Shown: one piece after another, positions 4,299 to 24,516 of the stretch
Layout: each line of letters starts with the position of its first letter
Position numbering within the stretch: the first letter of the stretch is position 1
Source of the DNA: a virus
Strand: one strand, 5' to 3'
Virus record (IMG/VR): IMGVR_UViG_3300044712_000361
Span: 1-26,399 of that record
Length of the DNA: 26,399 bases
Program-made: the position numbers and the translations under genes
The notes under the pieces: model-generated
Database searches by the model: none
Told to the model about the DNA's origin: nothing
What the model saw: the letters and a program-made list of their open reading frames with translations, nothing else

Positions 4299-4605
4299 AT
4301 ACTATTGTATGAGCGAAGTTGAGTTGGCTGTTTCATTCGTAAACAATGCAGCCTATTACGATCCGGATGGAGGGGTTACTTTATTGGTTAAAGAGCCGGG
4401 TAAGCACTTTGCTACATATACCTATCCGGCAGATATAACAAAGGACTCTACTGGACATTACAGCATGAGCCTGACAGTTAATTCAGTAGGTATATGGACT
4501 TATGTTTGGGTTTCAGACGATGCTTCAAAGGGCCACGTAGAGTCTGGGGACAAGATTCAAGTTCAGCCTGCCCTGAGCCATGTGTTAAAGGAGCTTCCTA
4601 AATGA
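4291..4605 (+). CDS. Ig-like/BppU-like beta domain protein (104 aa)
   Basis: The GTG at 4291 follows GAGGT closely and overlaps the previous gene by 8 bases; an ATG at 4309 is an alternative without a ribosome site. The central pattern, with VTLLVKEPG, YTYPADITKDSTGHYSMSL and GIWTYVWVSDD (about residues 29-78), is the common single-domain phage fold in which a strand pair 'DPxxVTLxVxxPxG', then 'ITKDxTGxYxxxxxxxxxGxWxYxW', is repeated across baseplate, fibre and minor tail proteins. It is probably a small beta-sandwich attached to the baseplate or fibre. Its last base pairs overlap the lysin start as ATGA. Confidence 0.65.
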   Translation: MNKYYCMSEVELAVSFVNNAAYYDPDGGVTLLVKEPGKHFATYTYPADITKDSTGHYSMSLTVNSVGIWTYVWVSDDASKGHVESGDKIQVQPALSHVLKELPK

Positions 4606-6074
4606 GAATACGTTATCCGATGATTATAGACTCCGCCTACAATAATTTGGGGGCGGACTGGACAAAGATGGGGGACAGCCTATGGGGAATGTATGTGAAG
4701 GCTACAGAAGGTCAGTTTACCCGCGATCCGCAGTTTCCTGCTTCCTGGGCGCAGTTACGGAATATGGGAAAGCCGCGTGCTGCCTACCACTTCTATCGTG
4801 AGAGCTGGTATGGTATGCCGCGTGACCCGATTGCACAGGCGAACTTCTTCTATAATCGAGTTAAAGAGTTTGGAATCATTCCTGGCGACAGATTCGTATT
4901 GGATGCAGAAGACAATAGTATGACCATCCAGAAAATCCTGGCATGTGCCAGAGAGATACGTCGTTTGAGTGGCTACTGGCCGATTTTGTACTCCGGGTTC
5001 TATTATTTGAAGGATAATACCAAGGGCTACGAGCTTCTGACGGATGCAGAGATAGACGACCTTAAGAAGCTTCCGATAATCATTTCGGCTTACCTAACAG
5101 ATGGAGATAACTATGAATTCCTTCCAGGTACTTTGGTTCCGGATCAAAGATATTTCGGTAGTGTCGTGGGCTGGCAGTATGCTGGAGACGTCAAGCCAGA
5201 GGTTCACAAGCTTCCCGGCCTTAATCCCTATTACAACAACGACTTGGACTTCAACGTATTCTTACCGGAGTTTTTAGAGGATTGGAAGACTGGCTACTAT
5301 ATGCCGGAGCCTGAACCCGAGCCTCTTCCGGAACCCCCTGCTCCAGATACCGGAACTTCCTTTACTCTTCGCCACTTTGATGTGGTTAACTACTACGGTA
5401 ACTCCACTCGTGTTCATGTAGCAAGTTTCAACTTGGCTGAATTCGATGTCATACTGGACAACCGCCTTAACTTCATGACGACAGACCGGTGGGCGGAGCA
5501 GATGAATGTGGATTATGCAGTCAATGGCCTCGCAGGTTGGTATCCAGGCCCCAAAAAGCGTGGAATTGTACAGACAATACTGGATGGTATGGCTTTCTTT
5601 CACGGAACAGGAGTTATGGGAACCGGCTACCAGAACCTGTATATCGATCAGAATAATAGGTTCTCTGTCTTCCGCCCTGTTCATATCTGGAATGCTCATG
5701 GCTTCCCCAATGTCCTGCTTAGGGATTTTGTTGTGCAGACCTTTAAGAAGACTCTGGACGACCTGCGAGCGCGTACGGCTGTAGGAGTTACAGAAGACCA
5801 GACTCGCCTGTATGTAGTAACAGTAGATGGCAAGGACTATGCTATGAAAGAGGGGCTTAACTTCCCGCAGACGGCGGAGATTATGAAGTCCCTGGGATGC
5901 AAAGACGCCTGGATGGCAGATGGCGGCGGAAGTACGACTGCTATATTGAAGACTGCCGATGGGAAGTATGAAGTCGTAGGAACCCCCTGGGGAGAGGAAA
6001 CTCGTATAGTAAATGGATCGGTCTACAAGATGAGGCCGGTTGCAGTTCACTTTGGTTTGAGGAGAAAATCATGA
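4602..6074 (+). CDS. GH25 muramidase fused to phosphodiester-glycosidase-like domain
   Basis: This 490-residue protein has two enzyme-like domains. Residues 1-228 are a GH25 lysozyme: D10 in MIID, the DxE catalytic pair D101/E103 in FVLDAEDN, VKATEG (32-37), AAYHFYR (60-66) and the closing WQYAG...NNDLDFNVF (191-220) are all family signatures. A Pro/Glu linker (about 235-249) follows. Residues 255-485 match the phosphodiester glycosidase (NAGPA/DUF2233) domain, with FNL, YAVNGLAGW, RTAVGVT (391-397), LYVVTVDG (403-410) and the hallmark DGGGSTT (440-446). GH25 cleaves peptidoglycan; NAGPA-like domains remove phosphodiester-linked sugars, so the second domain may trim wall-polymer or glycan phosphodiesters (inference). 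There is no signal peptide. AAAGGAG sits upstream, and the start overlaps the previous gene. Confidence 0.85.
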   Translation: MRIRYPMIIDSAYNNLGADWTKMGDSLWGMYVKATEGQFTRDPQFPASWAQLRNMGKPRAAYHFYRESWYGMPRDPIAQANFFYNRVKEFGIIPGDRFVLDAEDNSMTIQKILACAREIRRLSGYWPILYSGFYYLKDNTKGYELLTDAEIDDLKKLPIIISAYLTDGDNYEFLPGTLVPDQRYFGSVVGWQYAGDVKPEVHKLPGLNPYYNNDLDFNVFLPEFLEDWKTGYYMPEPEPEPLPEPPAPDTGTSFTLRHFDVVNYYGNSTRVHVASFNLAEFDVILDNRLNFMTTDRWAEQMNVDYAVNGLAGWYPGPKKRGIVQTILDGMAFFHGTGVMGTGYQNLYIDQNNRFSVFRPVHIWNAHGFPNVLLRDFVVQTFKKTLDDLRARTAVGVTEDQTRLYVVTVDGKDYAMKEGLNFPQTAEIMKSLGCKDAWMADGGGSTTAILKTADGKYEVVGTPWGEETRIVNGSVYKMRPVAVHFGLRRKS

Positions 6075-6922
6075 GGCTTTTACCTGCACCACAGATTTGG
6101 TCATTGAAGTCCTGGGACGAGGTTCCCGCGGGTGAAATAGATAATCCCCCTAGCAACACCTGGGCCATGATACGAACGTGGGATCAAGAGGTCAACGGTA
6201 CTGCTGGAACTAGTGTCAAGGTCAATCTGGAACTAAGGGAAATAAATTTCTGCAAAGCCGTCAACGACCAAAACCCTGGTTTTTGGAGATGGGCAGACCA
6301 TCCTGCCGGTACAGTCTATTTCGGCGAGGACTGGAAAACGGATATACGGGTTAAGTGGGCAGTCATTATGATGGCCTCTTCGTCCCGCTTGAATGTTAGA
6401 AACTTTGTAATAGTTGATGCGTTCTCCGATGATGGCTCTTTGGTGAGAGTACAGGCTATTCCCAGGTCTACGGACTATTCCAGGTATCTGCATGACCCCA
6501 ATTATGTACAGAGAGTATTCGACCAGGGTGGGTACAATGCCTGCGATGGTCTGCCTACCAGTATGCCTATGTTTGACCCTACTAGTGGGTTTGTGAGCAA
6601 CGCAAAGGGTATCTGGTTCCGTCCCATTTGGAAGTACGCTCTGATTGGCGAACTGCCCCTCTCTACGTCAATTCCTGGGGTTGGAGAAGTAATAATTTCT
6701 TATCGAGGTACGGATTGGATAGGCCGCGTGAAGAATCTGAATATACGTCCTACCCCGAGTATGTATAATACGGAGGTAGGTTACGTGTATCCTGCCACCC
6801 ACATTGACTTGGATGCGATTGTGGAGACGACAGAGGGCGTCTGGGGGAAGATTAGCAATAAGCTATGGATAGCCCTGTATTTGAAATCCAACAACACGTA
6901 CTACACAACATGGCGACCGTAA
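6071..6922 (+). CDS. Protein with C-terminal SH3b-type cell-wall-binding domain
   Basis: The ATG overlaps the lysin stop (ATGA) and follows GGAG. Residues 1-215 are an unrecognised, Trp-rich beta-like region (for example NPGFWRWADHPAG near 68-80, IWFRPIWKYALIGELP near 181-196). Residues 221-283 fit a bacterial SH3 (SH3b) domain: VKNLNIRPTPSMYNTEVGYV, then a hydrophobic strand, then GVWGKIS (256-262), WIALYL (266-271) and a terminal YYTTW. SH3b domains bind peptidoglycan cross-bridges or wall polymers. Coupling to the catalytic protein suggests a two-gene lysin or wall-targeting system. No catalytic motif is visible in the N-terminal part. Transcription may end or be interrupted downstream, where the HNH island begins. 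Confidence 0.65.
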   Translation: MRLLPAPQIWSLKSWDEVPAGEIDNPPSNTWAMIRTWDQEVNGTAGTSVKVNLELREINFCKAVNDQNPGFWRWADHPAGTVYFGEDWKTDIRVKWAVIMMASSSRLNVRNFVIVDAFSDDGSLVRVQAIPRSTDYSRYLHDPNYVQRVFDQGGYNACDGLPTSMPMFDPTSGFVSNAKGIWFRPIWKYALIGELPLSTSIPGVGEVIISYRGTDWIGRVKNLNIRPTPSMYNTEVGYVYPATHIDLDAIVETTEGVWGKISNKLWIALYLKSNNTYYTTWRP

Positions 6923-6951
6923 AAAGTGAACCCCCACCAAAAAAGAAGCCC

Positions 6952-6993
6952 TTGAAAGAAGCCCCTCCCCTATGATAGTATATAGGGGAGGAG
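6952..6993 (+). promoter_or_regulatory. Hairpin hiding a ribosome site, with a promoter inside it
   Basis: CCTCCCCTAT (6964-6973) and ATAGGGGAGG (6982-6991) are perfect 10-bp arms around an 8-base loop. The right arm is the Shine-Dalgarno region (GGGGAGGAG, 6985-6993) of the HNH gene that starts at 6999, so read-through transcripts from the lysin would have it masked. A promoter lies across the same hairpin: TTGAAA (6952-6957) is 18 bases from TAGTAT (6976-6981), with TATGAT or TATATA as alternative -10 boxes. A transcript starting near 6985-6988 would lack the left arm and expose the site. This arrangement is known for T4-family homing endonuclease genes such as I-TevI. Confidence 0.6.
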
Positions 6994-6998
6994 TTCTT

Positions 6999-7349
6999 AT
7001 GGGAAAAGCTATACATAGAATATCAAATGTGAATGAACAAACCAAGACCGCCGATTGTGCTTCCTGTGGAAGAGTTACAGTTATAAAGAAGAGAACTAGA
7101 CCCAATTATTATAGGTGGGCGTGTAAAGTCGCTATTGCTCAACAGAAGCATCCTAAACAACCAAATAAGGGATATAGTAAAGGGAAATGCCCCATTTGTG
7201 GTATCGAAACTGATAAATTAGTTTACGATCATAATCACAAAACTGGGGCATTTCGTGGGTGGATATGTAATCCCTGCAATATGGGACTAGGAAATTTCAG
7301 AGATGATCCCAAATCCTTAATGAGAGCCGCTACTTATTTGAGTCAGTAG
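6999..7349 (+). CDS. Endonuclease VII-like HNH nuclease
   Basis: The ATG at 6999 is selected because GGGGAGGAG ends 5 bases earlier; an in-frame ATG at 6972 would place the start inside the hairpin. The 116-residue product has an N-terminal CASCG-type Cys pair (about residues 18-21), then the recombination endonuclease VII/HNH core: CPICG (about 57-61), LVYDHNHKTGAFRG with the DHxH catalytic motif (about 67-80), WICNPCNMGLG (second zinc pair CNPC), and FRDDP near the end. Family members cut branched or specific double-strand DNA; free-standing copies next to terminase may be mobile homing enzymes or act in packaging. The coding DNA is visibly more A-rich than its neighbours, consistent with a separate origin. 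The 3' end overlaps the minus-strand gene by 20 bases. Confidence 0.85.
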   Translation: MGKAIHRISNVNEQTKTADCASCGRVTVIKKRTRPNYYRWACKVAIAQQKHPKQPNKGYSKGKCPICGIETDKLVYDHNHKTGAFRGWICNPCNMGLGNFRDDPKSLMRAATYLSQ

Positions 7350-7554
7350 GGGGTTCTTCTTTAGGTAGAGCTTGTAGCTCCATCGTCACTCTGAGCTTTA
7401 CACCCTTGGGTTCTAGGGGCGTATATGTGATGTTCAAGGCCTGAATCAGAACGCTTAGGTTCGGGTCTTGTTTCATCACAATGACCTTAAGACCATCTCG
7501 AATGGCCTTTTCCAGGGCCGGGCCGTCAAATGTGTATGTCTTTTTTCCTAACAT
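7330..7554 (-). CDS. Minus-strand hypothetical protein (74 aa)
   Basis: This is the only convincing gene on the minus strand. Read in its own direction, the ATG at 7554 follows a strong ACGGAGGTACT ribosome site. The product reads as strand-helix-strand: KKTYTFDG, ALEKAIRDGLKVIVM (about residues 13-27), then SVLIQALNITY and KGVKLRVTMELQAL, ending in an acidic Pro-rich tail. No DNA-binding motif or known family is recognised. It is divergent from the 7625 gene and convergent with the HNH gene, overlapping the latter's end by 20 bases. A regulator is possible from this position, but the sequence alone does not show it. Confidence 0.65.
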   Translation of the reverse strand: MLGKKTYTFDGPALEKAIRDGLKVIVMKQDPNLSVLIQALNITYTPLEPKGVKLRVTMELQALPKEEPPTDSNK

Positions 7555-7624: not shown

Positions 7625-7846
7625 ATGGCTAAGAAGAAATGGGCAACTAAAGCTTTCGACAAGGCCAGCGAAGGCTCCTTGGGCAGTTTGAGTAATCCCG
7701 CAGCTATAGTAGCCAAAGCTCGCAAAAACCGAGGCGGAACAGTGAGGAAACTGTTACTTCTGGCGAACGGTAGTGGAGATGCCGCAACCAGGGCCAAGGC
7801 CAAGTCAATCATCAGCAGGATTAAAAGGGAATTAGGAGAGGCTTAG
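7625..7846 (+). CDS. Small basic helical protein, candidate small terminase
   Basis: The start follows AAAGGAAGGTGAGAA. The 73 residues are Lys/Arg/Ala-rich and predicted helical: MAKKKWATKAFDKASEG, then a Gly/Ser/Pro break, then KARKNRGGTVRKLLLLAN and a C-terminal helix TRAKAKSIISRIKRELGEA. Position directly before TerL, with a 1-base stop/start overlap (TAGTG), is where a small terminase is often found. However, at 73 aa it is shorter than usual TerS and no helix-turn-helix is obvious. It may be a TerS, a packaging-associated DNA-binding protein, or an unrelated nucleoid-like protein. Confidence 0.6.
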   Translation: MAKKKWATKAFDKASEGSLGSLSNPAAIVAKARKNRGGTVRKLLLLANGSGDAATRAKAKSIISRIKRELGEA

Positions 7847-9441
7847 TGAAAGAGTATCTTGAATGGATAAAGACCGCAGGATTTTGGGCAAGAGAAACGT
7901 GGGACATAGAAAAGGGGAGAATGAAGGGGGCTGGAATAATGGAGCTTTTCCCTCACCAGGAGAAAATCCTGGGTTCTGCGCTGAAATTCAACGAGGAAGG
8001 ACTGTTGGATTTTGAGACGGTGATTTACTCCTGTCCAAAGAAGTCCGGTAAGACGGCAATTGCTGCCTCTGTGGGCTGTTGGTATGCGGAAGAAGGTCGT
8101 CCTGGTACAGAGATTTATGTTATCGCTAATACCCAGGAGCAGGGAGCCGGTCTGGTCTTTCGTGACATTATCTACCACTTCAAGCACAAACAGGAGACTG
8201 ACCCGCTCGGAAAGAAGTACTGCAAAATCCACGAGTTCCGAATTGACTTTCCCAATGGAACGTTCATACAAGTTCTCGCGCAGTCGTTCAAAAGTGTAGC
8301 CGGTAGCCGACACGCTCTCACACTCTGGGACGAACTCTGGGGCTACACATCGGAGTTTGATAGACGTGTATGGGACGAAATGGTTCCGATTCCTACAGTT
8401 CAGAACTCCCTGCGCTTCATCACGACATACGCAGGATTTGAGAACGAGTCCGACCTACTCTGGGAGATGTTCATAAGAGGTATTGGAGAAGACGAAGGCT
8501 CCGAACATGAAAGCAAGGGTCAGGGTACAAAAATCCCAGACCTGGAAGACTTGCCGGTCTGGTCGAACGGACGTATGTTTACCTACTGGGATCATGAACC
8601 CAGGATGCCCTGGCAAACAGAGAAGTACCTGGACGAGCAGAGAGCATCTGAACGTCCGGCGGCGTTCATGCGTCTTCACATGAACCATTGGGTGACCAGT
8701 CACGAGGAGTTTATCCCTGTGTCTTGGTGGGAGAGGGCTACCAAGAGTTATGAAAATCCTGCAACTCTGTGGATTGACCATCCCTTCCGATATTGGCCAA
8801 TCACCATCGCTGTAGATGCAGGAATTCGTCGAGACTCTACTGCAATCGTCGGAGTTGGATATGATGCTCACAGGGGCAAAGTTGGAATTGTTTTTCACTG
8901 GGTATGGTCGCCACAGACGGACGACCCAATTGACCTGGAGGAGACAGTAGAGAAAGAGTTGCGCAAGATTGTGAGACAGTTTAATGTTGCTTCAATCGTA
9001 TATGACCCTACTCATTTAATTACGATCATGAACCGACTGAAGAGGGAAGGTTTGCCTACCAGAATGTATGAGCAGACACTCCCTAACATGACAGCCGCCT
9101 CGCAGCTCTTGTACGACCTGTTCAAGAACAACAACCTGGAAGCTTATCCTGACGACACTCTGAAGCGTCAGATACAAATGGCGGTCGCAGAGACTACCAG
9201 TCGTGGCTTCCGGATTGTAAAGACCAAGATGTCCAAGCGCCATCACATTGATGCAGCTATCGCCCTGGCGATGGCCTGTTATGAAGCAGTTCAGAATGGC
9301 GGCGTAGACATCTCAATTCCAGTCATGATCCGCTCCCCGTACTACGATATGACCGCATTGGAGCCGGAAGAGGACATGAGTGTACCTTTTGAGCTACGAG
9401 GAGAAGTAAATGACAATTCGCCTATCTCATATAACGAATAA
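7846..9441 (+). CDS. terL: Terminase large subunit (TerL)
   Basis: TerL is the DNA packaging motor, an N-terminal ATPase plus a C-terminal RNase H-like nuclease. Start GTG at 7846 is preceded by AGGAGAGG. In this 531-residue protein the Walker A is CPKKSGKTA (residues 63-71), the Walker B with catalytic acid is LTLWDE (158-163), and RFITTYAG (190-197) fits the coupling motif. The nuclease domain shows three acidic centres: D324 in IAVDAG, D387 in IVYDPTH, and D469 in HHIDAAIALAMA. This is the full length expected of the family with all key residues present. It probably cuts the concatemer and pumps DNA through the portal encoded next, 11 bases downstream. Confidence 0.95.
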   Translation: MKEYLEWIKTAGFWARETWDIEKGRMKGAGIMELFPHQEKILGSALKFNEEGLLDFETVIYSCPKKSGKTAIAASVGCWYAEEGRPGTEIYVIANTQEQGAGLVFRDIIYHFKHKQETDPLGKKYCKIHEFRIDFPNGTFIQVLAQSFKSVAGSRHALTLWDELWGYTSEFDRRVWDEMVPIPTVQNSLRFITTYAGFENESDLLWEMFIRGIGEDEGSEHESKGQGTKIPDLEDLPVWSNGRMFTYWDHEPRMPWQTEKYLDEQRASERPAAFMRLHMNHWVTSHEEFIPVSWWERATKSYENPATLWIDHPFRYWPITIAVDAGIRRDSTAIVGVGYDAHRGKVGIVFHWVWSPQTDDPIDLEETVEKELRKIVRQFNVASIVYDPTHLITIMNRLKREGLPTRMYEQTLPNMTAASQLLYDLFKNNNLEAYPDDTLKRQIQMAVAETTSRGFRIVKTKMSKRHHIDAAIALAMACYEAVQNGGVDISIPVMIRSPYYDMTALEPEEDMSVPFELRGEVNDNSPISYNE

Positions 9442-12326: not shown

Positions 12327-15300
12327 ATGCCTACAAGAATCGGTTTAAATACCGAGAAGTATCGTAAGTGGTTACAGGGCCAGGGTGCTGGCTACCAGGG
12401 GAAAGATTTACTGGCGGCAGGTATTGCCAAGGATTGGCAGAACAGACAAGATCGGGCAATACCTGCCAGTATGCTTCACCTTGCCCAGCCCTACGATACG
12501 TTTGAGGCCGGTCTTGCTGCGCCTCCTATAACTCGCGCTCCTACCGTTCTGCCCCAGCGTCTGCAAATAGCCAGGGAGTTCTGGAGTACTCCGGAATTCG
12601 GACAGTATGTGCAAGAGATTATTAAGAGCAGGAATATTGCGGATAACTCCCTGGATGCAAATTCCCGCCATCCCTCTCCTGGACTTACTGGTGTAAGCAG
12701 GGTGCAGGAGCTATATCGTGCTCCCAAGGTAGCCCCGGTAGGTGCTCCCAAGGCTGGAATATCTGCAAATCTGGCCGCCGTATTAGTTGGTCAGCGTCAG
12801 GAGGCTCCTGGATTTGGAGGTAAACCTTACTTATCTCCCAAGGAGTACGCCGCCCTAGTAGCGAAACAGAACCCAGCTTCCGCTATCCCTGCCGGAATTA
12901 AGCAGCCACGTTTTGTTTTTGATATGAGTGGCAATCCCCTGGAAATCTATCGCTCTTATGCGGAGATAGTGGCTCAAATCCGTGCCGACAACATAGGCCA
13001 TCCGATTCGTACATGGTGGAACATTGTAAAGTACAACGCAGCCCTGGGTCTTGCGGAAGGCGTAAAAGTTTTTGCGGGCCCTGCTACCGGTGTCATGGAG
13101 ATTTCTCCCAAGACTATAGTAGGCGCTGTTCGAGACTTAGTCTTTAATGCGATTATGAGCGGAGTGAGCGGATACGCATCTCTTGGCGCAGGTATCATGG
13201 CCAGCGATGAAGCTGCTCTTAGCATGAAACAGCGAGCCTATAACATCAGACAGGAGGCTCAGCGCATGGCTCTGGATGGGGATACGAATGCTACCCCCGC
13301 CGAAATTAAGTCCATGTTGTCCTATGCGGATAGCCTGGATGCCAACGCTACCAGGATTATGGCAACCCGAGCCTGGGCTATTGCCAGCTTCTCAAAGTAT
13401 TCAACCGGCCTAAAGAACTCCTGGAATAATATGATGGGGGTAGTATCTGGCAAGGATAAACTTCCAGAGCGTCCTACGCCGATTGCCGCCCGCGACCCTC
13501 AGGCCGCTAAGATGGAACTGTATCATGATCCGGAAAGCGGATTGAATTACGAGGCCGGAGCCTGGAAGAAGTGGCAAGAAACGATTGCTTCTCAAAAGGG
13601 AATAGAAGCTGATAGCCATGACTTAGCTCTTCAAAGTTATGGAGAGATTGAAACTGCTACGTCTCAGGAAGAGGCTAATCTTCTGGCCCTTAGGGCTGTT
13701 GATCAACAGGCTACTTCTATAGAAGCTCGCTATAGCCTGGAAATTATAAATCCTCTGGACTCTTATACTTGGGCATCAGAGCCGGATAAGCGTATCGGGA
13801 TGATGAAGGACTTGGCCGTCTTTGAACTTCAAGTCGGTCGTCCTGTCACCATGTCTGAGCTTCAGAATATTAAAGACCACTGGGTCAATCCCTGGACAGA
13901 TGGCATTGGACAGGCTATTTTTGATCCCCTCTGGTTAGTTCCAGAAGCCGCCTGGGAAAAGGTATTTGCCCCAGTTAAGCTTCTGGCAGGTAAGGGAGCC
14001 GCCGCTATTAAAGGCTCCGAGTTCATGCAGAAATTCTTTTTTGCCGAAGCCCACACCTCTGTTGCTAACCGCCTTGGAAGAATGGTCTACGATACTGTCG
14101 GAATGATGCGTGGCGGATATACCGGCGGCATAGAGCATCTTATTGACGATATGCCCAAGGTCGGCTCCATTGCTTTGGAAGTAGACCGTAGAATGGGAAC
14201 CGCCGCTGGAGTTGAAGCGGCCAGAGAGTACTACGAAGTCGAGAAGTTGACAGTAGAAGGCTTGAAGCGAGTGAACTTTGACGACTTCCTGAAGTTTCAG
14301 AAATCCTTTAAATCTGCTGATGGTGCATTCCTGCTTGACCCTGCCGAATGGGGAAACCTGATGCGAAGTGGTGAAGAAAACGCTATCAAGGCTTATCGGG
14401 ATCGTGCTTTCACGCAGTTCCGCAGACAGGGTATGTCTGTAGATGAGGCTTGGACAGAGGTAGAGAAGAATGCCAATCTCTTCAAAGAGCATGTCGGTAA
14501 GACTGATGATGCGATTAATTATTTCCGCAGTAAGATTGAGAGCGCCTATCTTGACCCCCACAAGTCCTTCCCCGGTAGTCGCTTGATTGACGATACTCTT
14601 ACTGGAGCCTGGGCCAAGGCAGCAGTTAAGGGAGGGAACAGAGGGCTTGCCCAGACTCTGGACACTGGCAGCATGGTACTGAGTGCGTTCAGGAACCTTT
14701 GGTCTTCAGCCGTCTTGAACCTGAACCCGTCTCGTATTATTCGTAACTTGATCGACTCTACCTTCCGTGACGTAGTGTACGGAGGGAATGTTATCGACGA
14801 CCTCGATACTCTTCTGAGAAACACCCACCTTATGTTCGCCGACGACGTTGGATTCATTCCGGTTGAATTCGGTCAGTCCCTGGCTCGTGCTGGCCTGGAT
14901 ATGGATCAGAGCGTTCCTTTCAAGCTTCTGTATGACGAAAAGAACAAGCCGCGCTTCGGTCTGTACTCTTACTGGAGACAGGAAGTAGACCGACTTGGAT
15001 TAGTTGATTCTGGAAAGATTGCTGCCGGTATTGGAGAATCCATGTCTCCACAGGGCAGTCGTCTCTTTAAGAATATATGGAATGGCATGAAGGCAGTTCC
15101 ATCCGCATTCGCTGATGTCAACACAGCAATAGAATTCACACTTCGTCTTCGTATGTTCCATCGTGAATACTTCAATCTACTCAGGACAATGGAGCCTGAA
15201 ATTTTGAGGACAGTTATGGCAGATTTGTCTCCTGAAGCTAGAAGGCTAGCTCAGGAGGCGTGGGATGTAGGTGGCGGAAACGCAGCCAAAATGGCCTCCT

Positions 15301-18300
15301 ACATTGACAGTGCTACCCTGCGGGCCGATTTTATTGACAAGGCTCACCCTGCTTGGTCATACAGCCTTCCTGACAATTTTGGCGGCAAGATGTCAAACCC
15401 TGAGCTATTCATCTCTCACGTCCGTAGCAATACAGACCAGTGGATTGAAGGCGTATACAAGAAGACTGGCAAGCGCCCAACCAATGAGATGATTGATAAG
15501 TACATCGCAGACAGCATTGAAAGCTTTGAACATGCAACAGCAGACCAGATTTCTCAGACTGCCGGACATCGTGGCGTCTCCGGTCAAATGGGTTCGGATG
15601 TATCCGATATGCCGCTGCCCGACGACCTGGGAGGCTCTGCTCCCGTATTCGAGCGCGCGCATCCTGCAACAGTCGTAAAGGTTAAAGAGGCCCCCAAGCC
15701 CCTGATTCCTCGCGGCAGAGTTAAGTCAATGGATGTTATCAACAACTATCGTGACGAAATGCTACCGATTGCCAGTGTCAACCGCTACTCTGGAAATGTA
15801 CCCCGTGTTCACATAGGAGAACAGGGTAGGATTTATATTGACATCCCCGATACTCTCAAGCAAAGCAAGGTCGCGGATGTACTTCACGATTCCACAATAC
15901 AGGCCTTTTCTATTCACGACGAGCAGTTCATTCGTGAAGTTGCAGAGGCGTCTCGTCGCCCAGGCTCCATTCCTGTAAGTTGGACGAACAAGGAAGAGTG
16001 GGTGACTGGGTTTAAAAACTTCCTGAAAGACCCGCTCAAAATCTACAATGAGAAACCCGCCGACTTCCTGACCTATGTACGTCAGATGGAGCGGAACCCA
16101 GAGATGTTCGACGTGATAAGCAGGACTGGTATCGGCAAGAACCGCGTCCAGAGCTACGAGCAGGCCGCTATCGTTATGCGCCGCCACGGATACCTGGAAG
16201 AGGTTCGGGAGATGCCAGCGAATAAATATTTCGGCCTTCTGGAACACGAAGAGCAGATTGCCCACCCAAGGCCGCTCTCGTATCTACAGAAAGGCGATGA
16301 GTCCTCCTATGCGACCGGCAAGTTCTCTGAGGCTATCATAGTCAAAGAGGGCGACCCGAATGCTACGATTATGTCCCAGATAAGCCATGAAGGCAGCACT
16401 CTGATTGACCGCCTTGGCTCTCTACGGGATAAATATCGTGACTACCTGCGCCTTATTGAGCCGGGGCCTCACCGCTCTGGTGTCGAAGGCTCTCTGGCTC
16501 AGCGTCTGTGGGATAAGTTTTTCCAGATACGTGGCCTGGAATATGAATCACGGGGACGTATCCTGAACCCTATTCGCAAACTCATTGAAGATAAGAGATT
16601 CACAGACGCCCTGGAAGACCTACAGAAGCTTACTAAGGGTAACCTTCCTGAGTTGTTTCTACAGAAGCAGGGCTATGCGTTCGAGTGGAATGACGACGCT
16701 ACCAAGATTGTTCGTGGAACTCTGATGGATGATGGCGTCGAGCGCGCTTTGAGCGAAATGGAAATTACCGGCTTACAAAAGCGTTTCTTTGAATACGATC
16801 CTACTCCTCACGACCCAGTCCGAACTCTGGATATAACGGGTGCTGAGATGTCTGTAGGTAAGCAAATCAAGGAAGCCCTGGTAGGTACGTTCGGCTTCAA
16901 AGACCGGACGGCTGGAACTATTACCGGAATGATTAAGTCCCAGGCAGACTGGGGCGTGCAGTTCGGTCGTACAGCCGATGAGTTCTATGAGGGTCTTGGC
17001 TTTACCAAAGTATCCAAGGGCTGGCAGGTCAAGAAGATTGGCGAAAATCTGGAGGCCCTCAAAAAAGGCCTGATTATGAAAGACCCTCTGACTGACCGTA
17101 TCATGATGATGGGTGTTGGCAGCAACAATCTGTCAGAGTTTGCGCGCCAGTATACCGTTCTGCTCTATGACGACTGGGCTAAGATTGCAGCCAAGAATCC
17201 TACATTTAAGACAGAATACTTCGACCCAATTCTGGAAATCATGGGTTCCAAAGGTGGAACTCCAACCGTCGAACAATTGAACAAACTGGCAGATACGTTC
17301 GTTGCCGTGATTGCGGGTGGCCGTCCATCTACTGTTAGGATTGCTCGTCCTTTCGACGCGTACAGCAAAATCCTGGCTAACGCATACGAGGGTATTCTCC
17401 GCAACCAGGACTTGCTAGACCTGCCGCCGGATGTGGTTGCAGCAATAAATAAGATGTTCATTAGCTCCAAGATGTCTGCTCCTCCAGTCAGCGCTGCTCC
17501 CCGAGTAGCCAAGATGATCTCCAAGGAGCTTGGCGTCAATGTCAGCGAAGAGCAGATTATCGCCATGACATTCGACTCGATGAGGAAGAAAGCTGCCTTC
17601 ATCCATGACCCGTACAACCCCAACAAGTTCCTGGAGTGGGCAAAGACCAACAAGGGTATGTCTACTGAGGACGCCTACAAAGCCTGGGTCAATGCCGGAC
17701 GCTCTGAGCTTGACAACCTACATCCTGTAGTTCAGGAATACTTCGCTGACGATGCCTTCTGGGGAGAGGGTGGAGCTTTCGCACTTCGTCCCGCAGAGGA
17801 AGCGGAGAAGATGTTCCCCTACAAGACGATTGCAGAGTTTACTCCCAATATGGATTGGAATACTGCTCTAGAAACTCTTAGGAGCCGGGCTAAGAATACC
17901 AATCAGGAAGTAATGCTTACTAGCCAGATGGAAGCAGGCTTCAATGAATGGAAGCAGGGCCGCTTCTCTGGGTTCCCCGACTCAGCTACTACCGATCCGG
18001 ATACCCTGATTAAGTATCTGAAAGACCGCTCTCTGTCTACTACCGATACGGAACTGAAGCAGCAATACCAGGACATGGTCTGGACTGTTGAACAGTTCCA
18101 ACAGGACATGACTACCCACTTCTCCGGTCGAAACCTGATGGGTAAAAGGAAGGCCTGGGACGAATATGAAATCCGTCTGAATGAGGAGATGAAGAAACTC
18201 TCTGAACTTATAGATAACCCCGAGACGGAAGAGGCGGCACGATACGAAGCTCGTACGAGAATGTCCATGATACGGCGAATTCGTGATACGGGCGAGGCTC

Positions 18301-21300
18301 CCGAAGAGCTTATGCCAATCTACCGCGCCACTGAACGCAATCTACAAACTCGTGGAAATTGGTGGACAACGAATCCCAGCGTAACTAACACGCGGGCTGG
18401 AATGACGACCAGGACTGCTAATGTAGATATTGCTTACATTCCCAAGAGTGAGTGGGAAGCCGCTCAGCAGAAGGCTATTGCTGAGAATGCCAGGAGAGGT
18501 ACAACCGGTATCGATCCGGAAGAAGGAATTATTGAAAGCCTTCCCTATGGATTCTTCACCGAAGCCGACCTTCCCGGCGGACGTCTTACATATGAAGGCG
18601 TAAAGCCTCTGACTTGGACGGAGAAGGTTCCTACAAGAATTACATCTAAAGACCTGATTGCCCCCGTCTTGTCTCCACGAGTACCTGAGTCTGCGATTGA
18701 TGATGGTGTTGTGACATGGATACGTAACAATGTCGCAAATACTAACTCCCTGGAGGCCGGGCGAACAGAACTGAAGCGTCTTGGTGAACACCTCAAGAGT
18801 GGTGCAGGATTCAGCCGAATACTTCCGAATGACATCAAGTCAGAACTACAGGCCTGGAAGCTTAAGGCTATTAATGAAAAGAACGGCCTCGTCTCAAAGG
18901 CTATGAACGGAGACGGAGCAGGCTTAGAAGGAGCTATTGCCAAGGTTAACCGCGTCATGCTGGACTACAACTACCGGATGCGGATTGACAACGTCATGAG
19001 GAACATCATTCCCTTCTGGCAGTTCCCCTCTCGATCATTCCCGTTTTGGGCAGAAGCTCTGGCTACCCACCCGCAGATTATCGCCGGGTATCAGAAACTA
19101 CAGAACCTGTCCAGACAGACACGCTTCCAGGCGGGCGCTATAACCTCCAGTGGTAGACCTCTACCTTCTCTGGATGGCTTTATACCCGTTCCTGGTACAG
19201 ACCTCTGGTTCAACCCAGTGGCTCCCCTGTCATTCATATACATGCTGGGCGCTGGACAGTCACCGGAAGATGTGCTTAATCAAACTCAGAATGCTCATGA
19301 CGACGTACCTCCAGTCGCCGCCGTAGCTCAGGAGTTCCTGAGTATGTCCCCTGTTTACGGTATCTCCCCGGCCCCCTGGATTACAGGCCCACTGAAGAAG
19401 TGGCTTGGACTATCCGATGCCGTAGCACCACCCTGGCCTATCACTCCCCAGATTCCTCTAATGCCGAGATGGTGGGAGCAGGAACTGGTGCATAAACTTA
19501 ATGATGTCTTCGCTCATATTGGCTACCCCCACGCTGCGGATTGGATGAACAGTGTCTACCCGGAAGTCTCCTGGCATGATTATCTGGTTGAGCGTCAGAT
19601 GTTAACAGACCTCAAAGCACGCCTGGGAACCCTGAATAACGTAGACCAGATGTATCTGGCAAATCAGGTAGCTCGGGCTATCAAGGAAAAGGGCAAGAAT
19701 GCACTATGGCAGGAAGCCTATCGGACATATACCGAGTCCGAGGCCAGCAGGAGCCAGGGAGCATTCCTGACAGGCTTTTACACCAAGCCATTCACGGATG
19801 CAGACGCCGACATGCTGGCCCTGCGAAATCAGAACAACCTGATGAAATCGACTATGAACAGCAAGTTTCAGTCGGCTCTCTTCGACATTCCTATTGATGC
19901 TAACCAAGCCTGGAGCAAATACCTGGATGCCCAGAATACTCCAGAAGGCTGGATATACAAGCTCTACACCGAAGTTGGCTACGTGCGCAATCCTGGCGGA
20001 CTGATTGAAACAGACCCCGCGAAACGCGCCCAACTTCTGGCTCAGAGAATACAGCAGGATGAGAATGAAGCCCTTTACTATCAGAAGGTGACAAGTCTAC
20101 AGCAGACGCTACAGGCTAAGCTCAAAGCTGCTGGCGTGGGTGCTCCGTTCGATGTAATCTCACCGATATACGATGAATATTATGCCGGACTGGGCAGTAT
20201 TCAACATCTTAGCAACTATCAGACCGGCTTCGGAACTAACAAGCCAGCCGCGATAATTGAGCAGCAACTTACGGACAAGTGGTTCCGGATGATTAATCAC
20301 ACCAAGCCCGTCTGGGACGCCCAAGGCGGAGAGACGTATGACCAGTGGCAAATGAGGGTTGACGTCTGGAAAGAACAGCTTCCCGAGACAGGAAAGTTTT
20401 TCCTTCACTTCTTTACAACACAGGGAGACGTTGAGGACATTGTTCACAACCTGCGTCCTGATCAACAGCTAAGTAACAATTTCTTTGGTATGTTGGTAGA
20501 AATGACCAACGCCCAGGGATTGGATCAGTGGCAGTTGGGGCGCGACTCCATCTTCGATGCGATGAATAAAGCATACGAGGAACTGTACTGGAAGCCGTAC
20601 TGGGAAGCTTTAAAAGACCCGACCTCCGATACTGGATGGAAAAAGGGTTCTGCATACGAAGCCGGAATTCAGGACTTCGCTGCCGCCCATCCGGATGGCC
20701 CCCCTACTTCTGAGGAGATGTTCGCGTATATGTCCCAGATTTACGGAACCAAGTTCACTCTGGATCAAATCAGGGTATATGCTGAAGGTGGAGAATTGTG
20801 GAGTATTCAAAAGCGCCTGGAGCAGATGCACGCTAACGACCCGCTGTATCAGACCAAGCAGGACATCTATCACTACCTGTCATTCGCTGGCCCAGGCAAG
20901 GGGCGCAGTCTAATTATGCAATCCGTGTCTGCATCGGTCAGTACAGACATAGACAATTGGCTATCGAGTCAGGGTACGTTGTATGACGACGACCCAGAGG
21001 CTTTGGCGGCCCTGCGTGACGCCCTTAAAACTACAGTTGAGCGCCTGCAAAAAGAGCAGGGCTTATTGGAACCTACTCGCGACGACTTGGCTGTTTTTGT
21101 GGAGGCGGAGGAACAGAACCGTCAATTCCAGGATTTGTTCATCGAGAACCTCAAGCAGAAGGGGGTTATCACGGACTGGGATACCGCCTCCAAAGTACTG
21201 TCCAAGTATTATAACGACCAGAAGTACTTCTCTACCTCCTACAAGGCGGACTACAACAACATCGTCCTGCCTTATATCCAGGCGCGTAGTGTATGGGCAA

Positions 21301-21674
21301 GCAAGAACCCAGTTTGGGCCTCCGTATATATGTGGGCGCAGAGTGGTAAGTACTATGGTAATTACCTAAATTACCTCTCCCACAAGAATGACATCCGGAT
21401 ACCTACGATGAATTTACTTGGAAATGCCAGCGCACTAACTCCGCCCGCCTCTTTCCAGTCTGGATTTGGCCCAGTCCACTATGAGAATTACGGTGGGGTT
21501 AACTGGCCGGTAGGTATGAGGGAAGCAGTCAGCCCGTACATGGTAGCAGAGATACAAAATGTCTCTCTCCACCCAGGCAACTACAGGCTTTCCAACTCTG
21601 CTACTGCCGCATTAAATACTTTGAAAAACATACACCCAGAGTGGGAGGATTTCATTAATCCCCTCCTGCCCTAA
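12327..21674 (+). CDS. Giant virion-associated (polyvalent) protein, 3115 aa
   Basis: One uninterrupted 9.3-kb reading frame with a good GGAGG site, in the head module between portal and scaffold. I see no complete enzyme domain. Motifs resembling large phage polyvalent proteins occur: SAVLNLNPSRIIRNLIDS (about 791-810), a helix with DVNTAIEFTLRLRMF (about 928-943), and NVMRNIIPFWQFPSRSFPFW (about 2221-2241), similar to 'HxRN' and 'FPFxxxP' motifs of large polyvalent-protein-associated domains. Residues about 1997-2040 (IYRATERNLQTRGNWWTTN...VDIAYIP) weakly recall ADP-ribosyltransferase-like phage domains. A Gly/Ala-rich hydrophobic stretch lies at about 260-290. The C-terminal third is Trp/Tyr-rich with long helices. 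It is probably packaged in the head and perhaps ejected with DNA, like other giant internal proteins; this is inference. Confidence 0.8.
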   Translation: MPTRIGLNTEKYRKWLQGQGAGYQGKDLLAAGIAKDWQNRQDRAIPASMLHLAQPYDTFEAGLAAPPITRAPTVLPQRLQIAREFWSTPEFGQYVQEIIKSRNIADNSLDANSRHPSPGLTGVSRVQELYRAPKVAPVGAPKAGISANLAAVLVGQRQEAPGFGGKPYLSPKEYAALVAKQNPASAIPAGIKQPRFVFDMSGNPLEIYRSYAEIVAQIRADNIGHPIRTWWNIVKYNAALGLAEGVKVFAGPATGVMEISPKTIVGAVRDLVFNAIMSGVSGYASLGAGIMASDEAALSMKQRAYNIRQEAQRMALDGDTNATPAEIKSMLSYADSLDANATRIMATRAWAIASFSKYSTGLKNSWNNMMGVVSGKDKLPERPTPIAARDPQAAKMELYHDPESGLNYEAGAWKKWQETIASQKGIEADSHDLALQSYGEIETATSQEEANLLALRAVDQQATSIEARYSLEIINPLDSYTWASEPDKRIGMMKDLAVFELQVGRPVTMSELQNIKDHWVNPWTDGIGQAIFDPLWLVPEAAWEKVFAPVKLLAGKGAAAIKGSEFMQKFFFAEAHTSVANRLGRMVYDTVGMMRGGYTGGIEHLIDDMPKVGSIALEVDRRMGTAAGVEAAREYYEVEKLTVEGLKRVNFDDFLKFQKSFKSADGAFLLDPAEWGNLMRSGEENAIKAYRDRAFTQFRRQGMSVDEAWTEVEKNANLFKEHVGKTDDAINYFRSKIESAYLDPHKSFPGSRLIDDTLTGAWAKAAVKGGNRGLAQTLDTGSMVLSAFRNLWSSAVLNLNPSRIIRNLIDSTFRDVVYGGNVIDDLDTLLRNTHLMFADDVGFIPVEFGQSLARAGLDMDQSVPFKLLYDEKNKPRFGLYSYWRQEVDRLGLVDSGKIAAGIGESMSPQGSRLFKNIWNGMKAVPSAFADVNTAIEFTLRLRMFHREYFNLLRTMEPEILRTVMADLSPEARRLAQEAWDVGGGNAAKMASYIDSATLRADFIDKAHPAWSYSLPDNFGGKMSNPELFISHVRSNTDQWIEGVYKKTGKRPTNEMIDKYIADSIESFEHATADQISQTAGHRGVSGQMGSDVSDMPLPDDLGGSAPVFERAHPATVVKVKEAPKPLIPRGRVKSMDVINNYRDEMLPIASVNRYSGNVPRVHIGEQGRIYIDIPDTLKQSKVADVLHDSTIQAFSIHDEQFIREVAEASRRPGSIPVSWTNKEEWVTGFKNFLKDPLKIYNEKPADFLTYVRQMERNPEMFDVISRTGIGKNRVQSYEQAAIVMRRHGYLEEVREMPANKYFGLLEHEEQIAHPRPLSYLQKGDESSYATGKFSEAIIVKEGDPNATIMSQISHEGSTLIDRLGSLRDKYRDYLRLIEPGPHRSGVEGSLAQRLWDKFFQIRGLEYESRGRILNPIRKLIEDKRFTDALEDLQKLTKGNLPELFLQKQGYAFEWNDDATKIVRGTLMDDGVERALSEMEITGLQKRFFEYDPTPHDPVRTLDITGAEMSVGKQIKEALVGTFGFKDRTAGTITGMIKSQADWGVQFGRTADEFYEGLGFTKVSKGWQVKKIGENLEALKKGLIMKDPLTDRIMMMGVGSNNLSEFARQYTVLLYDDWAKIAAKNPTFKTEYFDPILEIMGSKGGTPTVEQLNKLADTFVAVIAGGRPSTVRIARPFDAYSKILANAYEGILRNQDLLDLPPDVVAAINKMFISSKMSAPPVSAAPRVAKMISKELGVNVSEEQIIAMTFDSMRKKAAFIHDPYNPNKFLEWAKTNKGMSTEDAYKAWVNAGRSELDNLHPVVQEYFADDAFWGEGGAFALRPAEEAEKMFPYKTIAEFTPNMDWNTALETLRSRAKNTNQEVMLTSQMEAGFNEWKQGRFSGFPDSATTDPDTLIKYLKDRSLSTTDTELKQQYQDMVWTVEQFQQDMTTHFSGRNLMGKRKAWDEYEIRLNEEMKKLSELIDNPETEEAARYEARTRMSMIRRIRDTGEAPEELMPIYRATERNLQTRGNWWTTNPSVTNTRAGMTTRTANVDIAYIPKSEWEAAQQKAIAENARRGTTGIDPEEGIIESLPYGFFTEADLPGGRLTYEGVKPLTWTEKVPTRITSKDLIAPVLSPRVPESAIDDGVVTWIRNNVANTNSLEAGRTELKRLGEHLKSGAGFSRILPNDIKSELQAWKLKAINEKNGLVSKAMNGDGAGLEGAIAKVNRVMLDYNYRMRIDNVMRNIIPFWQFPSRSFPFWAEALATHPQIIAGYQKLQNLSRQTRFQAGAITSSGRPLPSLDGFIPVPGTDLWFNPVAPLSFIYMLGAGQSPEDVLNQTQNAHDDVPPVAAVAQEFLSMSPVYGISPAPWITGPLKKWLGLSDAVAPPWPITPQIPLMPRWWEQELVHKLNDVFAHIGYPHAADWMNSVYPEVSWHDYLVERQMLTDLKARLGTLNNVDQMYLANQVARAIKEKGKNALWQEAYRTYTESEASRSQGAFLTGFYTKPFTDADADMLALRNQNNLMKSTMNSKFQSALFDIPIDANQAWSKYLDAQNTPEGWIYKLYTEVGYVRNPGGLIETDPAKRAQLLAQRIQQDENEALYYQKVTSLQQTLQAKLKAAGVGAPFDVISPIYDEYYAGLGSIQHLSNYQTGFGTNKPAAIIEQQLTDKWFRMINHTKPVWDAQGGETYDQWQMRVDVWKEQLPETGKFFLHFFTTQGDVEDIVHNLRPDQQLSNNFFGMLVEMTNAQGLDQWQLGRDSIFDAMNKAYEELYWKPYWEALKDPTSDTGWKKGSAYEAGIQDFAAAHPDGPPTSEEMFAYMSQIYGTKFTLDQIRVYAEGGELWSIQKRLEQMHANDPLYQTKQDIYHYLSFAGPGKGRSLIMQSVSASVSTDIDNWLSSQGTLYDDDPEALAALRDALKTTVERLQKEQGLLEPTRDDLAVFVEAEEQNRQFQDLFIENLKQKGVITDWDTASKVLSKYYNDQKYFSTSYKADYNNIVLPYIQARSVWASKNPVWASVYMWAQSGKYYGNYLNYLSHKNDIRIPTMNLLGNASALTPPASFQSGFGPVHYENYGGVNWPVGMREAVSPYMVAEIQNVSLHPGNYRLSNSATAALNTLKNIHPEWEDFINPLLP

Positions 21675-24016: not shown

Positions 24017-24466
24017 ATGGCGATTCAGACTAGAGACATCAAGCCCGTTAAAGGCGAATTTAATATCGGCGCTCAGCAAACCGAGAAGAATCGCAGGTCG
24101 TCTCACTGGTACAAATCCGATCTGATTTCTGTTGGCGGAGATACCTCCAACACGCTGTTCCGTCTGCCCAACAACTGTATCGTAGTCGGCGGCTTCGTCT
24201 CTGTGGAGACAGCTTTCGACGCTTCCGGTACTTCCACCGCAGCGACAGCGACAGTAACAGTTACCAACAGCACGGGTACTGAAACCATTTACGACGCAGC
24301 CAACACTGGCTTGCAGTCAACAGGCCTTCACCCCGCAACTGGCTTTGCCATTGTCTCCGACACTGGTGGAGCACCGGTAGCCTTGTTCCTGTACGACCCT
24401 GGTACTACGACAGGCGGCGCGGCTCGCGTCTACCTAGAAGTAGTCCACTTGGATGATTTGCTGTAG
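24017..24466 (+). CDS. Beta-rich head protein, possible decoration protein (149 aa)
   Basis: AAAGGATGGTGA provides the ribosome site. After a basic N-terminus (IKPVKGEFNIGAQQTEKNRRSS) the product has LFRLPNNCIVVGGFVSVETAFDAS (about 47-70), ATATVTVTNSTGTETIYDA and a C-terminal strand RVYLEVVHLDDLL. The LPxxxxVVGxxVxVxTAFDxS pattern is a common phage beta-sandwich start and parallels that in the preceding gene. No catalytic residues are evident. It is the last gene before the terminator at 24486, so probably the end of a head-gene unit. Confidence 0.6.
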   Translation: MAIQTRDIKPVKGEFNIGAQQTEKNRRSSHWYKSDLISVGGDTSNTLFRLPNNCIVVGGFVSVETAFDASGTSTAATATVTVTNSTGTETIYDAANTGLQSTGLHPATGFAIVSDTGGAPVALFLYDPGTTTGGAARVYLEVVHLDDLL

Positions 24467-24485: not shown

Positions 24486-24516
24486 AAACAGGAGAGCGAA
24501 AGTGGCTCTCCTGTTT
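24486..24516 (+). terminator. Strong intrinsic terminator
   Basis: AAACAGGAGAGC (24486-24497) and GCTCTCCTGTTT (24505-24516) make a perfect 12-bp stem around the 7-base loop GAAAGTG. A C/T-rich tract (CTCTTTCT, 24517-24524) follows, including TTT. It lies just after the decoration-type gene (stop at 24466) and just before the promoter at 24524, so it closes the scaffold-capsid unit. The 12-bp length is unusually strong for this window. Confidence 0.8.

Follow-up and report, generated by a model that had tools for sequence, protein, structure and literature searches.

Hairpins that mask a ribosome-binding site and are relieved by an internal promoter are documented for a handful of T4-family genes. 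The T4 genes e, soc, 49 and I-TevI are listed with a sequestered Shine-Dalgarno (SD) sequence or start codon in PMC3014915, and late promoters shorten the transcripts of T4-family homing genes according to PMC2988022, which supports the precedents (I-TevI and mobE) invoked by a first-pass annotation of the locus studied here. In I-TevI, I-TevII, I-TevIII, segB and Aeh1 mobE, as predicted for the present locus, the SD hairpin is formed only by transcripts initiated upstream (PMC2988022), but these genes belong to other nuclease families, use T4 late promoters and reside in T4-like phages. No report of a wider use of the hairpin/promoter switch outside T4-like phages was found in the open-access literature. 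The F-CphI/DHHRN nucleases resemble the one described here in being free-standing and in having a C-terminal EndoVII catalytic motif, but F-CphI is tied to a psbA intron, and the word "hairpin" occurs 0 times in the text of PMC6083498.

The closest precedent is T4 gene 49 (endonuclease VII, EndoVII), which the first-pass annotation missed. Folding of the T4 sequence places a hairpin, ACCCTTATC...GGTAAGGGT, before its ATG. Gene 49 is served by a T4 late promoter, whose motif is TATAAATA, and by a phage sigma factor. It shares with our locus its protein family, a hairpin immediately 5′ of the gene whose right arm holds the SD, and AT-rich promoter-like sequence at the left arm. The two differ in the cost of opening the SD, which is 6.2 for gene 49 versus 16.0 kcal/mol here, and in the position of the catalytic motif, which is N-terminal in gene 49 and C-terminal in our nuclease.

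Hairpin, Shine-Dalgarno sequence and candidate promoter

The window, by which we mean the whole stretch of DNA analysed, is a 26,399-base virus record. The nuclease gene lies between an endolysin gene and a terminase gene, with the following features:

4602-6074: GH25/NAGPA endolysin gene, directly 5′ of the gene at 6071-6922
6071-6922, + strand: upstream gene with no assigned function, the presumed source of read-through RNA
6952-6957, + strand: -35-like hexamer TTGAAA (5 of 6), from the promoter scan and shuffle test
6964-6973, + strand: left arm of the hairpin, CCTCCCCTAT, within the promoter spacer (sequence read, fold and perfect-stem count)
6976-6981, + strand: -10-like hexamer TAGTAT (4 of 6), located in the hairpin loop and its closing wobble pair
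6982-6991, + strand: right arm of the hairpin, ATAGGGGAGG (sequence read, fold and perfect-stem count)
6985-6993, + strand: SD, GGGGAGGAG, 5 nt 5′ of the ATG, its final AG just beyond the arms
6999-7349, + strand: 116-aa EndoVII-motif (PF02945) nuclease gene, motif at residues 60-115
7330-7554, - strand: small convergent gene covering the last 20 nt of the nuclease gene
7625-7846: small gene between the nuclease and the terminase large subunit
7846-9441, + strand: terminase large subunit, the 3′ neighbour after the small gene at 7625-7846

The hairpin with the SD inside it is real. Sequence, fold and shuffles all confirmed the earlier claim that perfect 10-bp arms bury the SD; on reading the sequence, G6974-U6981 adds an 11th pair atop them, and AAGAA/TTCTT outside the arms lengthens the fold (MFE -27.3, z -3.74, with 0 of 200 shuffles equally stable). 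Perfect stems of at least 10 bp with loops of at most 12 number 2 in the 26.4-kb window, this hairpin and the one at 24486-24516, compared with 0.2 per shuffle. Opening the SD costs 16.0 kcal/mol, the highest value among 587 genes scored alike, versus 8.5 ± 2.2 in shuffles, none of which (0 of 1000) reached 16.0. A wider start-region measure (-16 to +5) is unexceptional, being reached by 150 of 1000 shuffles, probably because the upstream sequence is C-rich. When the 5′ end of the RNA was varied, the computed SD opening cost was 11-12.6 kcal/mol for ends from 6880 to 6962, 5.6 for an end at 6966 and about 1 from 6970 on, the SD letters opened in this series differing slightly from those in the 16.0 calculation. 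By this computation RNA started upstream masks the SD, as had been proposed. An in-frame ATG at 6972, in the left arm and loop, has no SD of its own and was absent from the first-pass annotation.

The candidate promoter TTGAAA-18-TAGTAT straddles the left arm as originally described. It scores 9 of 12, with a TG one base 5′ of the -10 hexamer; the alternative TTGAAA-16-GATAGT scores equally. Promoters scoring at least 9 of 12 with a start at -35 to -3 arose in 27 of 2000 shuffles of the same 100 nt, and a scan of 3 kb found 7 promoters versus 3.8 expected, a mild excess. TTGAAA-18-TAGTAT is plausible as a working promoter on the basis of its sequence, and the transcript would be predicted to start at about 6986-6989, in the right arm. 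The proposed geometry, by which a message from the gene's own promoter loses the left arm, holds, such ends falling in the range where the computed cost is about 1. The predicted leader is ~11 nt long and has the SD at its extreme 5′ end, which is poor for initiation. The promoter is sigma70-like, not T4-late-like, and the T4 late motif TATAAATA is absent from 6940-6999 on reading the sequence.

In our reading, with a probability of roughly 0.6, the hairpin at 6964-6991 insulates a free-standing EndoVII-motif nuclease gene and is self-unmasking. In the computed fold of RNA coming from the lysis genes, the SD is paired with the left arm, and translation would be shut. The gene's own sigma70-like promoter, with its -35 hexamer before the left arm and its -10 hexamer in the loop, would if active produce a transcript that starts in the right arm, is without the left arm and has its SD left open. 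The likely purpose would be to silence a selfish DNA-cutting gene on an abundant late operon message, and transcription by host RNA polymerase would let the nuclease be made in modest amounts, perhaps early. The hairpin may also terminate transcription weakly, which would strengthen the insulation. Judging from gene function, the setting of the nuclease, from endolysin to terminase, is probably late-transcribed. The operon of T4 gene 49 is early/middle and its own promoter late; here the timing is probably the opposite, because a sigma70-like promoter is combined with a late neighbouring operon (lysis, packaging). The earlier interpretation is partly supported, and is widened below.

Nearest homologues and the terminator question

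The closest homologues of the nuclease are 45% identical over 1-114 (L282/L283), 33% identical (L284) and 36% identical over 1-78 (L285/L286). At these five loci, which hold three distinct sequences, a terminator hairpin lies upstream and no SD is masked; the U-tract scores of the terminators before the three distinct homologues are 2.25-5.16. The first-pass annotation had proposed looking for the same stem in related phages and would have taken its absence from relatives carrying the gene as refuting the proposal. The outcome is half each way: the five nearest loci have terminators without a masked SD, and more distant EndoVII-motif genes have covarying SD-masking stems.

Given the terminators before the nearest homologues, the window hairpin may have evolved from a terminator or may also act as one. 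We consider it somewhat unlikely that the main function of the hairpin is intrinsic termination, possibly in both directions, of the lysis operon and the convergent gene at 7330-7554, with a right arm that is incidentally the SD of a nuclease gene settled beside it. Terminator hairpins precede all three distinct nearest homologues, and a terminator (score 4.12) also lies 5′ of a reverse-strand gene in a terminase relative, L006; moreover, the AAGAA/TTCTT flanks of the window hairpin resemble a bidirectional terminator, and the scan lists the hairpin on both strands. A G+C-rich stem is present, but the U-tract is poor, scoring 0.99 from the end of the 11-bp stem and 2.75 only from 6994, and TTCTT is paired with AAGAA in the fold. 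The arm also holds a complete, correctly spaced SD, a feature missing from the terminator-type relatives, and terminator-like sites in the scan number 3 versus 2.4 expected. In either reading, insulator or terminator, the hairpin separates the nuclease from transcription that comes from upstream.

Several other sites in these sequences look like terminators or lie close to one. By eye, a TTGAAA-16-TATAAT pair at L282 overlaps the terminator and would yield a nearly leaderless message; at L282 (1440-1503), L284 and L285 the terminator is followed by a -10-like box and almost at once by the ATG, so that messages are possibly leaderless. Elsewhere in the window, a 12-bp perfect hairpin with a T-rich tail at 24486-24516, after the gene at 24017-24466, is an ordinary terminator by its look, and a hairpin at about 2203-2231, CCCGCCCTTCC...GGGAGGGC followed by TTTTG, is terminator-like and lies just 5′ of the ORF at 2232-2639.

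Type and setting of the nuclease

The gene had been called HNH; it is instead of the endonuclease VII type, matching the PF02945 profile at 67.9 bits versus a curated cut-off of 23.6 (E 7.5e-19). Five PHROG EndoVII families also match, phrog_2633 with an E of 1.8e-22. Translation and alignment place D77, H78, N79, H80, R86, C64, C67, C90, C93 and N94 in the protein, so that it keeps every catalytic and zinc position listed for T4 EndoVII and F-CphI in PMC6083498, and the D-H-x-H, R, N and two cysteine pairs of the DHHRN homing endonucleases are all there. The motif is C-terminal (residues 60-115 of 116), as in DHHRN/F-CphI, and the N-terminal catalytic motif of T4 EndoVII-type resolvases was not found in the protein. 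According to Fang et al. (PMC6083498), C-terminal motifs belong mostly to a homing/restriction clade and N-terminal motifs to resolvases. By this criterion a homing-type nuclease is more likely, and the free-standing mobile nuclease of the first-pass annotation is a likely identification. An imperfect inverted self-similarity (74%) lies within the gene at 7184-7254.

A blastn search of 6 kb of the window against 50,697 phage records gave no match, Rfam and tRNA scans of the window gave none, and a scan of genome contigs for close relatives of the nuclease gene yielded no homologue. Among the terminase and portal relatives (26 loci in 25 records), the nuclease lies outside the shared backbone. 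A relative of the small gene at 7330-7554 precedes the terminase in L091 (36% over 56 aa), and 12327-21674 is a single 3115-aa ORF in the 26-kb record, parts of which match relatives at 20-44%.

An unlikely possibility is that the gene encodes a phage Holliday-junction resolvase whose switch is timed to packaging as in T4 gene 49, a view that differs from ours in the role of the protein and not in the masking. The PF02945 family, the like masking of gene 49 and the adjoining terminase all fit such a role. The C-terminal motif does not, being tied by Fang et al. to the endonuclease rather than the resolvase clade, and a PF02945 match is present in 1 of 25 portal-related records, many of which are fragments. 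The upstream genes in these records differ. One portal-related record, that of L096 (G011), has three PF02945-like matches, one of them at 85 bits.

Recurrence among EndoVII-motif genes

In a first scan of EndoVII loci, several had an SD-masking hairpin whose left arm is enclosed by a promoter-like pair. Four of these loci (L060, L081, L063 and L076) were used as the query for 80 more, the query having been chosen after hairpins had been noticed in its members, which introduces an ascertainment bias. From these we aligned 14 distinct HNH_3+EndoVII upstream regions of the 31 listed (of 80 loci), excluding near-duplicates as well as L138-L148 and L155, which are more diverged. Pairing holds in 96.4% of the stem cells, and in 43-53% with slid partners. 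Compensatory, two-sided change occurs in 9 of 12 pairs (31 cells), no shuffle of 500 matches any of the measures, and RNAalifold recovers the identical stem unaided. Across the same 12 pairs there are 17 cells of G-U type versus 4 of A-C type, an imbalance that points to a structure kept as sense RNA rather than one in DNA or antisense. The best promoter score in these regions averages 9.07 of 12 versus a maximum of 7.71 among 300 shuffled sets; it is at least 9 in 8 of the 14 members, and only 8 of 12 in the other 6.

For the class as a whole, 1616 scripted genes were reduced to 1216 by 70% clustering, 90 of them EndoVII; a usable SD was present in 49 EndoVII genes and in 538 controls, taken from the other genes at these loci. 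A script assigned the start codons, and the controls include some artefacts, such as an antisense ORF over the L117 hairpin. An SD opening cost of at least 7 was found for 18/49 EndoVII genes versus 26/538 controls and 42/588 shuffled EndoVII upstreams, and a cost of at least 10 for 13/49 versus 4/538 and 8/588. A promoter combined with unmasking was present in 9/49, 5/538 and 6/588, respectively. When only loci fetched before the biased query and with a gap of at least 30 nt were counted (the window included), costs of at least 10 were reached by 5/18 versus 2/262, and unmasking by 4/18 versus 4/262.

Without the SD requirement, EndoVII genes and controls could not be told apart by the start-region measure (p=0.12; 90 vs 1126), with p=0.029 at gaps of at least 30 nt; the poor separation is due in part to the lower G+C of EndoVII upstreams. 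A shuffle-corrected version, comparing 61 EndoVII genes with 300 controls drawn randomly from those with a gap of at least 30, gave z of at least 3 for 16/61 versus 3/300 and of at least 4 for 13/61 versus 0/300; the window is not among the best 22 z-values listed. EndoVII genes that overlap or abut the upstream gene are mostly unmasked (2/8 reach 5 kcal/mol and 0/8 reach 7). Among the named EndoVII-motif genes (KLB12, VAC1, the Bas58 terminase intron, SS120-1 and DE7), no SD was detected for VAC1, and the SD-bearing ones cost 1.6-3.3, which shows that not every such gene is masked; those named genes that are coupled to an operon or carried by an intron lack masking. It is very improbable that the window hairpin has no regulatory role, a C-rich stretch facing a strong purine-rich SD by chance with translation starting regardless: the upstream sequence is C-rich and 150/1000 shuffles reach the wider start-region cost, but perfect stems of this size are expected at 0.2 per window, 0/1000 shuffles reach the SD-only cost, and the arrangement recurs and covaries in related genes.

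Genes of the L060 type lie directly behind a major-capsid-like gene (the capsid call is a reading of the sequence). We collected 80 loci of the capsid-like gene and examined 79 downstream, since L204 ends within the gene; seven have at most 300 nt downstream. An EndoVII-motif match follows in 13 of the 79. Nine of these are directly behind the capsid-like gene and fall into three types (L202/L203/L210; L236/L245/L246/L273; L268/L270); the other four (L211, L221, L263 and L267) lie further on, and the three that were read are coupled to the preceding gene. L209 and L213 have the 3′ flank common to L202/L210, but are without promoter, hairpin and nuclease. An optional free-standing insertion with empty-site relatives was thus found for the L060 family, and the empty L209/L213 against the occupied L202/L210 imply that the gene is gained and lost together with its promoter and stem.

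A broader proposal, to which we give even odds, is that in many unrelated phages the free-standing EndoVII-motif homing genes come with a portable cassette in which a sigma70-like promoter is interlaced with an SD-masking hairpin. The cassette would have arisen several times in different topologies: the left arm may fall within the spacer or cover the -10 or the -35, and the right arm may cover the SD or lie immediately downstream of the start codon. The gene could then reside in late operons with heavy transcription, following capsid or lysis genes, and yet be translated from no promoter but its own, probably early, with the T4 timing reversed. Covariation, empty sites and the excess across the class suggest that the hairpin-and-promoter solution of T4 is widespread in a large non-T4 family of mobile phage nucleases. 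If true, this would explain how nuclease genes invade late operons without being overexpressed, would allow annotated "HNH/EndoVII" genes to be tested for autonomous expression from their sequence, and would make the timing of free-standing homing gene action directly testable.

The remaining capsid-associated types were read by eye. L268 has TTGACA-17-TATATT over a long hairpin. In the L236/L273 type the codons after the ATG are masked, with changes on both arms; in L236, L245, L246 and L273 the upstream arm that pairs with the post-ATG codons overlaps a TTTACA box.
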